35,560 bases of DNA from Desulfovirgula sp. Lineage in GTDB: Bacteria > Bacillota > Desulfotomaculia > Desulfotomaculales > Desulfovirgulaceae. The notes beneath the pieces were generated by a model. The model saw only the letters and a list, made by a program, of their open reading frames with translations. It made no database searches and had not been told where the DNA came from. Position numbers and translations under genes: made by a program. The stretch covers positions 1 to 35,560 of the forward strand of contig DYEX01000011.1 of assembly GCA_020725525.1 (NCBI GenBank), read 5' to 3'. Of this stretch, positions 2,565-17,205 are shown one piece after another (position 1 is the first letter of the stretch; each line of letters starts with the position of its first letter).

Positions 2565-2673
2565 GTGCCGGAAAGTTCGGCAGCCCGGCTGCCATGGCGG
2601 CTCGCACCGCTTTAGGCCCGCAGCTTTGCGCCCCTGCCTTTCGGCAGGTTTGCCTCTTTTCGCTTTGCCGCAC
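2565..2673 (-). promoter_or_regulatory. Cyclic-di-GMP-I (GEMM-I) riboswitch controlling pilC
   Basis: The minus strand carries the GEMM-I signature in order: AGAGGCAAACC (near 2657), a GAAA tetraloop hairpin (TGCC-GAAA-GGCA), GGGGCGCAAAGC, GGGCCTAAAGC (tetraloop receptor arm), and CATGGCAGCCGGGCTGCCG (to 2578). This matches the Vibrio Vc2 layout. The base before CAAACC that contacts the ligand is G, as in c-di-GMP-specific members; the cGAMP variants of Geobacter have A. One deviation is GGGGCGC where GGGACGC is usual. The ends GUGC/GCAC and GGAAG/CUUCC extend P1. Flanked by its own promoter and by a terminator next to pilC. Confidence 0.94.
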
Positions 2674-13567: not shown

Positions 13568-15313
13568 TCAGTTCATCAGTTTCTCCAACGCCCGGCAGTA
13601 CCGGTTCAGGAGATCGTTCAAGGTTTGCTCACTCAGGTACCTGCCCATGGCGGGTGTTGCAAAAAGCCGGCGCGGGAAGCGTATTGACCGGTAATCAAAT
13701 CCCATTTCCCGCTTCAGCCGTACCTTCATCCTGAGAATTTCCCGGCCCAGCCGGCGCAAAGCCTCCCCATCAAAGTCCAGGCCGATGGACCGCAGCGCCC
13801 GGACGGTTGTAGCCTCATCGTAAACGCCGCGAGCAAAAAGGCAGATGCACAGGCTGTTTAGAACATTGCGCCAGCATTCTTCGGCCAGAAGGTGATCGAC
13901 TATCGCGTCGGGAGCAACCTCTCCTCCTGACCTCTGGTCGATCCCGTACCCATCGTTGCACAGGTGCGAGTGGCGGGCTCCAACAGCATGACCGAGAAGG
14001 TAACCGTAACCTGTATGATACCCTGCCATCTCGTGGCCGCCCAGCAGCAGCGCAAAATCCTCTCCCCCGTAACAGCGAACCGCAGCGGCAAGCCCCTGGG
14101 CCAGCGTCCTGTAAAAATCGTTGGGCTGGGCCACCAGGTTATTTACCGCCTTCAGATAAGCTTCCGTATTACCGAAGGCAAGGTCGACACCAGGTTCGCC
14201 CCGCGGCAGCAGGCCTTTTTGACGCGCCTCGGTCGCCCAGGCCAGCAGGACACCTGTGGAAATGGCATCCAGTCCCAGCAGTTCCACCTTTTCTATCAGT
14301 TTCAGGATATCGTCCATGTCACCGATACCCAGAAGGGAGCCCAGAGCGTATATGAGTTCGTAGTCGTAGGCAAGGGTGACTGACTCATACTCGTAATCCG
14401 GCGCAAACTGCCGTCGCAGCAGGGCGATGTGAATGCAGCCCACCGGGCAGCCGGTACAGGCAAGCTTCCGCATCAGTCTCTGGGCCGCGAAGGCTTCCCC
14501 ACTTATTGCCTCCGCGTTTTCAAAACTACTCGCCTGCAGGTTTCTGGTCGGCAGCGCACCCAGGCCGTTCAGCACGCTTACGTTTGCCGCCGTACCCAGA
14601 CCGTGGTACTTATACATGATGTCCGTACGGACGACGCGTTCGTAGATATCTTCATAGGCTTCCCGGTAGGCTTTGGGATATTTAATTGGATAGCTGAGTT
14701 CCCCGTTTACCACGACGGCTTTAAGATTTTTGCTGCCCAATACCGCACCGAGACCGAGCCGGCCGAAATGGCGAAAGGTATCTACATTTACGCACGCAAA
14801 AGCCACACCCCGTTCACCGGCGGGGCCGATACGGATAATGCTCCGGTGGCCCCGGCCCGGTTCCCACTCCCGCAGCAACCGGCCCGTGTCGTCCACCGAA
14901 AGCCCCCACAGCCCGCGCCCATCCTGAAACCGGACACCATCGGGGGAAAGAACAAGGTAGGCAGGCTTTGGCGCCCGCCCGGTAATTATAACCGCGTCAT
15001 ACCCTGCAAACCGCAGGGCGAATGCAAGGCGCATGCCGGCGTAACTCTCCCCCCATTCACCGGTCAGGGGAGAGCGGAAAACAGCCACCGTCTTGGTAGC
15101 CAGGGGAAAAACCGTGGTAAGGGGGCCTATGGCCAGGATAACCGGCTGGGAAGGATCCAAAGGCGGCAGTTTTGGATCAACCTTTTCGGCAAACAACCGG
15201 GTACCCACACCTATGCCCCCGAGGAATGTTGTGAGGTCAGGGCGTTCTTCTACAATATAATGTTGTTTTGTCAGGTCCACCTGCAACACGCGGATAGTTT
15301 GCCGATCAAGCAC
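13568..15313 (-). CDS. aor: Aldehyde:ferredoxin oxidoreductase (tungstopterin, AOR family)
   Basis: 581 aa, family length about 600. Oxidises aldehydes to acids, or reduces acids, with ferredoxin, using a W(Mo)-bis-pterin and one [4Fe-4S] cluster. The N-terminal domain (LGGIGVGTRL, the ATKTVAVFRSPLTGEWGESYAG pterin contact region, IRIGPAGE) is followed by cluster ligands C286-x2-C289-x3-C293, and the fourth near C489 (NSLCICLFARG). Also present: FGRLGLGAVLGSKNLKA. GTG 15313 follows GGAGGAGGCGGG and overlaps the ferredoxin stop by 8 nt, so the two are translationally coupled. Substrate unknown. Confidence 0.93.
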   Translation of the reverse strand: MLDRQTIRVLQVDLTKQHYIVEERPDLTTFLGGIGVGTRLFAEKVDPKLPPLDPSQPVILAIGPLTTVFPLATKTVAVFRSPLTGEWGESYAGMRLAFALRFAGYDAVIITGRAPKPAYLVLSPDGVRFQDGRGLWGLSVDDTGRLLREWEPGRGHRSIIRIGPAGERGVAFACVNVDTFRHFGRLGLGAVLGSKNLKAVVVNGELSYPIKYPKAYREAYEDIYERVVRTDIMYKYHGLGTAANVSVLNGLGALPTRNLQASSFENAEAISGEAFAAQRLMRKLACTGCPVGCIHIALLRRQFAPDYEYESVTLAYDYELIYALGSLLGIGDMDDILKLIEKVELLGLDAISTGVLLAWATEARQKGLLPRGEPGVDLAFGNTEAYLKAVNNLVAQPNDFYRTLAQGLAAAVRCYGGEDFALLLGGHEMAGYHTGYGYLLGHAVGARHSHLCNDGYGIDQRSGGEVAPDAIVDHLLAEECWRNVLNSLCICLFARGVYDEATTVRALRSIGLDFDGEALRRLGREILRMKVRLKREMGFDYRSIRFPRRLFATPAMGRYLSEQTLNDLLNRYCRALEKLMN

Positions 15314-15725
15314 CGTTACCCGCCTCCTCCACCATGGCCAGTACCTCATGGGGACAGAAACGGGCACAGGCGCCGCACTGTATGCACACAATCGGCCTGG
15401 ATTCTTCCTCGTCGAAGGTGATAACCCGCGCCACGCACCCCTCAGCGCACTGGCGACAACCGTTACATTTGCCGGAGATATAGGTCACGCCGCCACCTTT
15501 TCTGGGCAACAGTGCTCCGGTGGGACAAACAGCCGCACAGGGTGCGTCCCGGCAGCCGCGGCAAATATCTGCCTGCAACCGTGACTGCAGGCCGCCGCGG
15601 CTGCGAATCTGCACCGCACTCTTGCGGAGCGAAAAACTCTTGTGAACCACGCGGGCACAGGCCAGCATGCAGGAGTAGCAGGCTATACACCGGTTGATGT
15701 TTAAAACGGTTAAAACCCGAGCCAT
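15306..15725 (-). CDS. Four-cluster [4Fe-4S] ferredoxin-like partner of AOR
   Basis: 139 aa with sixteen cysteines in four ligand sets: C13/16/19/23, C55/58/63/67, C87/90/93/97 and C114/117/120/124. This is the DmsB/HycB-type electron-transfer subunit pattern with four [4Fe-4S] clusters. No signal peptide, so cytoplasmic. It overlaps the AOR gene by 8 nt and is probably its electron acceptor or the link to ferredoxin or a membrane complex. ATG 15725 (MARVLTV) has GGGGAG six bases upstream; the ATG two codons earlier is too close to that site. Confidence 0.92.
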   Translation of the reverse strand: MARVLTVLNINRCIACYSCMLACARVVHKSFSLRKSAVQIRSRGGLQSRLQADICRGCRDAPCAAVCPTGALLPRKGGGVTYISGKCNGCRQCAEGCVARVITFDEEESRPIVCIQCGACARFCPHEVLAMVEEAGNGA

Positions 15726-15766
15726 ACACATCTCCCCAAAAGTCGTTGTTGTGGTATAACAGCCAT

Positions 15767-16901: not shown

Positions 16902-16968
16902 TTATCCCGGGCTCAAAAAATAGAATTACCCGCAGGGGAAAAATCTATCCACCGGGAGGTATTGTAAA

Positions 16969-17205
16969 GTGACTACGGAACCCGTAACGGTGTTTACCAC
17001 CCCCACCTGACCCCATTGCCGCACGGTGAAAGAGTTTCTTTCCCAAAAGGGCGTGAAATTCACGGAAAAGAACGTGGCCGAGGACGAAATGGCCCGCAGT
17101 GAAATGGTACGCAAAACCGGCCGCCTGGCCGTGCCCACCATTACCGTGGGAGAACGGGTGGTGGTGGGGTTCAACCGGGGGGAACTGGAAAAATTGTTGC
17201 ATTAA
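16969..17205 (+). CDS. Selenocysteine-containing glutaredoxin-like protein (UxxC, YruB type)
   Basis: 79 codons with one in-frame TGA at 17008-17010. Read through as Sec, the 78-aa product has VTVFTTPT-U14-PHC17 where glutaredoxins have TCPHC or TCPWC, the cis-Pro segment LAVPTITV (Pro56), and the family's closing VGFNRGELEKLL. Everything both before and after the TGA fits the YruB/NrdH-like glutaredoxin family in one frame, so loss of function is less likely than recoding. GTG 16969 has GGGAGGT with 8-nt spacing. A stem-loop 18-32 nt after the UGA fits the bacterial SECIS model. Small thiol/selenol redox enzyme, cytoplasmic, convergent to trxA. The Sec machinery (selA, selB, selC, selD) lies outside the window. 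Confidence 0.88.
17028..17042 (+). promoter_or_regulatory. Candidate bacterial SECIS stem-loop
   Basis: GAAAG-AGTTT-CTTTC: 5-bp stem with a 5-nt loop, the loop starting 23 nt after the UGA at 17008-17010. It has a G within the first two loop bases, as the bacterial SECIS model requires for SelB binding. It lies inside the coding region. The stem is short and A/U rich, so experimental support matters. Confidence 0.6.

Follow-up and report, generated by a model that had tools for sequence, protein, structure and literature searches.

The window, by which we mean the whole 35,560-nucleotide stretch of Desulfovirgula sp. DNA that was analysed, very probably carries at 16969-17205 (forward strand) a gene for a dithiol-type (UxxC) selenoprotein glutaredoxin, in which, as we infer from comparison with related genomes, SelB would direct selenocysteine (Sec) into position 14 at an in-frame TGA.

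Reading frame, protein family and predicted fold

The gene had first been proposed from the letters of the window alone, and the coordinates given in that sequence-only reading for the start, the TGA and the stop proved exact, as did its count of 64 codons in the frame after the TGA. The features are as follows.

16954-16960, forward strand: ribosome-binding site GGGAGGT (from the sequence)
16969-16971, forward strand: GTG start codon (from the sequence)
16969-17205, forward strand: predicted selenoprotein glutaredoxin gene of 78 residues (GTG start, in-frame TGA as Sec14, TAA stop)
17008-17010, forward strand: TGA predicted to be read as selenocysteine, first position of UPHC (same codon in 50 of the 58 matches in the order)
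17017-17019, forward strand: TGC, predicted resolving Cys17 of UPHC (C17 invariant in 13 aligned proteins)
17025-17044, forward strand: putative bacterial SECIS hairpin GG-U-GAAAGA-GUU-UCUUUC-CC (synonymous-codon conservation and recoding test)
17134-17136, forward strand: CCC, Pro56 (P56 invariant in alignment A1)
17203-17205, forward strand: TAA stop codon (from the sequence)

The translated frame, VTTEPVTVFTTPT-U-PHCRTVKEFLSQKG...LLH, comprises 78 residues, and its UPHC motif would have Sec where CPHC has its first Cys, and keeps the second Cys. A GGGAGG or AGGAGG, read by eye, lies 7-9 bases 5' of the likely start in nine sequences of the family; in one of these nine (L027) the spacing of the ribosome-binding site fits the second of its two ATGs. 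Genes of this kind are easily missed by annotation because the open frame 3' of the stop codon is short, and gene finders would cut them at the internal stop.

Read with C at the TGA, the window protein matches PF00462 (Glutaredoxin) over the full profile (positions 1-60 of 60, E 6.4e-19, 68.4 bits, cut-off 22.9), and its top NCBIfam model is TIGR02196 (GlrX_YruB) at 87.3 bits, which is 1.25 short of the curated cut-off of 88.55. All 13 aligned members match TIGR02196, which gives the lowest E-value of all families (1.1e-28). The earlier description of a complete, YruB-like glutaredoxin is upheld by the full-length Pfam match and by the top-ranking model. Among the UXX-star models, the window protein scores 62.6 bits against NF041212 (curated cut-off 66) and 34-37 bits against NF041114, NF041211 and NF047338 (cut-offs 72-100), and so reaches none of them. 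An AlphaFold2 model built on the alignment of 13 sequences predicts a thioredoxin-type fold (pLDDT 92.8) with the corresponding strand and helix order E H E H E E H, in which residues 6-10, encoded 5' of the TGA, form the first strand; Pro56 occupies what we take to be the cis-proline position of thioredoxin folds. The closest solved structure found with Foldseek is cGrx1 (7c10), at 55-56% identity, a TM score of 0.88-0.90 and an rmsd of 0.9.

Conservation of the TGA and selection on both sides of it

The gene with its TGA is present in all six genomes of the genus and in all nine of the family. At the level of the order, a search with a threshold of E at most 1e-15, in which every match was examined, returned 58 matching places, spread over 53 of the 113 genomes covered. 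The TGA is present in 50 of these places, from 47 genomes, and stands at codon 14 in all 50. The remaining eight contain no stop codon and consist of seven with TGT or TGC at codon 14 (L041, L097-L101, L103) and one decayed copy (L029), so that homologues carry TGA, TGC or TGT at exactly the codon where the sequence-only reading had placed the nucleophilic Cys. A class-level search over 113 genomes (under the same handles where listed) found nothing beyond the order search. Among 23 loci of named relatives, 20 have TGA and three (L074, L075, L077) have Cys codons. Judged by its named relatives, the host most probably belongs to Desulfofundulus: the window protein shares 94% identity with that of Desulfofundulus thermosubterraneus and 91% with that of Desulfofundulus australicus, and the genes of these two species (L055, L056) are identical, over the stretch compared, to genes of two genomes in the window's genus. 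A sequencing error at 17008-17010 is excluded in practice, because named relatives that were sequenced independently, by others, share the same TGA.

Selection was estimated from 65 sequences, from which nine duplicates were dropped to leave 49 with TGA and seven with Cys. Across nine family sequences, the 10 codons preceding the TGA gave a pN/pS of 0.158 and codons +13 to +63 one of 0.157, compared with 1.05 in a frame-matched control stretch further upstream; for the 49 distinct TGA sequences, the values were 0.169 (the eight codons ahead of the TGA) and 0.344 (codons +13 to +63). In the family, purifying selection is thus equal on the codons 5' and 3' of the TGA, and both parts therefore code one protein, which excludes a pseudogene. 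A decayed gene or an error, that is, a Cys glutaredoxin whose TGC or TGT was turned into TGA by mutation or misreading, is the default interpretation of an in-frame stop, and one truly decayed copy is known in a relative (L029); we nevertheless give it next to no weight here, given the shared position of the TGA in 49 distinct sequences, the matching pN/pS values on either side in the family and the 20 of 23 loci that carry it in named, separately sequenced relatives, the other three coding Cys. The two sides of the TGA also bear on a second reading, by which the UGA terminates a 13-residue leader and the 64-codon stretch is translated separately or never, as with a regulatory stop or selenium sensor. 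Bacterial UGA/SECIS sites may in principle terminate at low selenium, but the leader codes the first strand of the predicted fold, its protein-level constraint in the family is the same as that on the rest, and a product of the post-TGA stretch would be left without the active-site nucleophile, which makes this reading very improbable beside a single Sec-containing protein.

Second copies were seen in some genomes. That of L029, around 1500-1675 of its locus (G006:C86), matches residues 21-78 only, the active site being absent. Those of L102, L103 and L104 (in G091, G092 and G090, respectively) are diverged glutaredoxins that share 44-46% identity with that of the window; two of the genomes have TGA and the third TGT, possibly another Sec/Cys switch.

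Selenocysteine machinery and the hairpin downstream of the UGA

The genome of the window (3.24 Mb, 99.99% complete) was searched for selA, selB, selC and selD, a check that the sequence-only reading had itself named as its refutation test, and all four are present. On contig C102, selA (636.7 bits) lies directly 5' of selB (375.6 bits, cut-off 242.25); a tRNA-Sec with anticodon TCA is found on C59 (74.9 bits, gathering cut-off 47), and selD scores 405.7 bits and has an in-frame TGA of its own. This selD (L052, G000:C148:2016-2939, reverse strand) is itself a predicted selenoprotein, reading KAAGUAAKVGP. Two further tRNAs score above the tRNA-Sec cut-off and are called tRNA-Cys and tRNA-Ser by ARAGORN. 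The former, a 94-nt tRNA-Cys(GCA) at L010:1500-1593 (G000:C85:26578-26671, forward strand; 52.6 bits), has an acceptor stem of 8 bp and a long variable arm when folded, and the order contains DNA similar to it in 50 of its 113 genomes. This tRNA matches the description of selC* tRNA-Cys, reported from anaerobic Firmicutes and others in a review (PMC7609411).

Across the order, selA was detected in 107 of 113 genomes, including 44 of the 47 with a TGA copy (the other three, G037, G068 and G099, are 64-84% complete) and five of the six whose glutaredoxin copies are Cys only; it therefore does not separate TGA carriers from Cys carriers. In one genome that is 72% complete, the selA match (G060:C56:46414-46899, reverse strand) covers profile positions 133-294 only and contains one internal TGA, as a fragment or a decaying selA.

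The stem-loop with an AGUUU loop that had been noticed 3' of the UGA was located at 17028-17042, with the core GAAAG-AGUUU-CUUUC, and extends via a bulged U to 8 bp with a GUU loop, the apical G standing 23 nt from the UGA; in loop, stem and spacing it agrees with the published features of a bacterial SECIS. The 24-nt segment of the window has a minimum free energy of -7.1 kcal/mol, which slightly misses the threshold of -7.5 given in PMC13188914, and in the 60 nt from the UGA on, the minimum-energy fold is an alternative structure other than the hairpin. Across TGA genes the hairpin-forming stretch takes the form GUGAAAGA-GUU-UCUUUCAC; in the window's genus, where the serine codon is TCC instead of TCA, a GG/CC clamp lies beneath the bulged U.

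Constraint on the hairpin was assessed in 38 sequences, of which three duplicates were dropped to leave 34 TGA genes and one Cys gene. The sample took eight of the 23 named-relative loci (L055, L056, L068-L071, L073, L076) and omits 12 TGA loci with repeated protein rows, the Cys loci L074, L075 and L077, the Cys paralogues L002, L023-L025 and L030, and the decayed L029. Among the 34 distinct TGA genes, mean synonymous identity reached 0.75 for codons +6 to +12 and lay at 0.40-0.52 for the other blocks counted (0.44-0.45 for codons +21 to +63). Within the hairpin, Val is coded by GTG in 34 of 34 cases, Glu by GAG in 33 of 33 and CTT is used in 32 of 34; the stem codons for Lys (+7) and Ser (+11) vary. 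Single codons beyond it are also well kept (+16 AAA, +31 GAA, +49 CAG), and synonymous conservation is concentrated in the hairpin. When the same genes were recoded synonymously, the summed energy of the real sequences was -252.9, compared with a null mean of -45.7 and a lowest value of -80.5 among 500 nulls. Taken singly, 32 of the 34 genes were equalled by 3.4% or less of their recodings (2.6% for the window) and two, L069 and L073, by 9%. In a scan with 8-codon windows, the mean z was -3.44 at codon +6 and ranged from -0.65 to 0.47 from codon +8 on. The rows of both synonymous tests are related to one another, and their sums are therefore not independent trials.

The aligned hairpin positions pair in 91.3% of cells, and in 41-74% when slid. 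Covariation showed no excess, since the columns hardly vary: shuffled alignments paired in 91.1% of cells, 116 of 500 shuffles were as high as the observed value, and the covariation score was matched by 39 of 500; RNAalifold likewise predicted no consensus structure and no pairs for the hairpin. Covariation and RNAalifold being unsupportive, we base the case for the hairpin on synonymous conservation, the recoding test and the comparison with Cys homologues. We conclude that the hairpin sequence is constrained in TGA genes, as a putative SECIS.

Homologues were also compared at position 14, another check proposed beforehand. The hairpin is kept in the genes with TGA there and weaker in some, as in the distant L102 (-3.2), L096 (-4.8) and L080 (-4.9). 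Of the seven Cys genes that the order search returned intact, five (L097-L101) lack the hairpin and show no fold in the corresponding 24 nt, though L097 retains the peptide VKEFL; with an identity of only 40-48% and an origin in two genera, these five leave divergence as a confounder of the absence. Another distant Cys gene, L103, folds weakly (-5.2). At L041:1501-1719 (G093), in a genome with selA, TGT replaces TGA in a gene 77% identical that keeps the whole hairpin at -9.2 kcal/mol; it is probably a recent Sec-to-Cys reversion carrying a fossil SECIS. The comparison set thus comprises 49 distinct Sec genes with a near-fixed hairpin, one close Cys gene that keeps it and five distant Cys genes without it.

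These observations also bear on whether a suppressor tRNA or near-cognate readthrough places Cys or Trp, instead of Sec, at the UGA. The tRNA-Cys of L010, a second tRNA-Sec-like molecule in the genome, could be taken to favour such decoding, but its GCA anticodon has no pairing with UGA, while a dedicated tRNA-Sec(TCA), SelB and a constrained hairpin are present, and the five Cys homologues without a hairpin fit dependence on SelB, with divergence as a confounder. We judge readthrough of this kind highly unlikely compared with the insertion of selenocysteine.

Possible redox partner and comparison with known systems

In the mechanism that we propose, SelB with Sec-tRNA-Sec would bind the hairpin just 3' of the UGA at 17008 and insert selenocysteine at position 14. 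By analogy with the family, the Sec14 selenolate would attack disulfides or other oxidised thiols and Cys17 would resolve the mixed selenenylsulfide, after which the oxidised Sec-Cys pair might be re-reduced by thioredoxin reductase, a low-molecular thiol or a ferredoxin-linked reductase. The title of the Sec-glutaredoxin study of Kim et al. 2011, as cited in PMC13188914, gives selenoprotein MsrA as the target. As a candidate partner, MsrA (PF01625) was not detected in the one genome searched, that of the window, with controls detected in 12 of 14 cases, and the partner here would therefore be another. The Sec-glutaredoxin is thus separated from MsrA in this genome, and its physiological partner can be searched for afresh.

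Operon and neighbour logic was also tried for the partner and rejected, the neighbours being variable and none indicating one across the window and 20 named loci. With genes named from a reading of the sequence, the window shares with five other loci a thioredoxin gene downstream on the opposite strand; six loci have shikimate-dehydrogenase-like and MobA-like genes on the upstream side, and in 14 loci besides the window a gene for a helix-turn-helix protein follows the glutaredoxin. Elsewhere in the window, a c-di-GMP-I riboswitch (2576-2664, reverse strand, 81.7 bits) lies beside apparent type IV pilus genes, and a large gene resembling tungsten aldehyde ferredoxin oxidoreductase (13568-15731, reverse strand) adjoins a ferredoxin-like gene, both sets of genes being named from their open reading frames.

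A wider proposal, which we offer tentatively and regard as rather unlikely to hold as a whole, is that of an order-wide Sec-glutaredoxin with a partner other than MsrA, together with a lineage-specific SECIS of two interchangeable forms (one with GUG/CAC fully paired, the other with a G-C clamp beneath a bulged U), a co-adapted local SelB, and natural Cys reversions with a fossil hairpin.

Sec-containing glutaredoxins (UxxC) are a family already known, and the window gene is very probably a new member of it. The UXX-star proteins (NF041212, NF041114, NF041211, NF047338) are likewise small glutaredoxin-like selenoproteins, named for their first-position Sec, whereas the window protein falls below all four cut-offs and keeps the second Cys (UPHC). 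From the YruB family (TIGR02196), its top NCBIfam model, it differs in its score, 1.25 bits below the cut-off, and in having Sec in place of Cys. The structural neighbour cGrx1 (PDB 7c10, 7c12, 7c13) is presumably the Sec-glutaredoxin of Clostridium (Alkaliphilus) oremlandii studied by Kim et al. 2011. It has CPHC, TVKEFLS and VVVGF in common with the window protein, beyond the identity and rmsd to 7c10 given above, and differs in that the title of its study points to MsrA as the target, a protein for which the window's genome gave no match.

A survey of 2006 names Moorella thermoacetica, Alkaliphilus metalliredigenes and Geobacter sulfurreducens as hosts of Sec-glutaredoxins in its table passages (PMC1794560), where the glutaredoxin row of the family table bears the number 3 (the column heads lie outside the passage) and Desulfotomaculum reducens is listed without a glutaredoxin; the selenoprotein glutaredoxin is also treated in PMC13188914. 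A literature search that included Desulfotomaculum, Pelotomaculum and Desulfofundulus, and that covered few subscription papers, gave no report of this gene there among the papers listed. By description, the UxxC glutaredoxins of Moorella, Alkaliphilus and Geobacter in the survey resemble the present group in belonging to the glutaredoxin family, in their UxxC motif with Sec first and in their anaerobic hosts with the Sec trait. The present group differs in spanning 47 of the 113 genomes of one order with a near-fixed hairpin, and what it adds to the known family is this breadth within a single order, the hairpin itself and Cys forms both with and without it.
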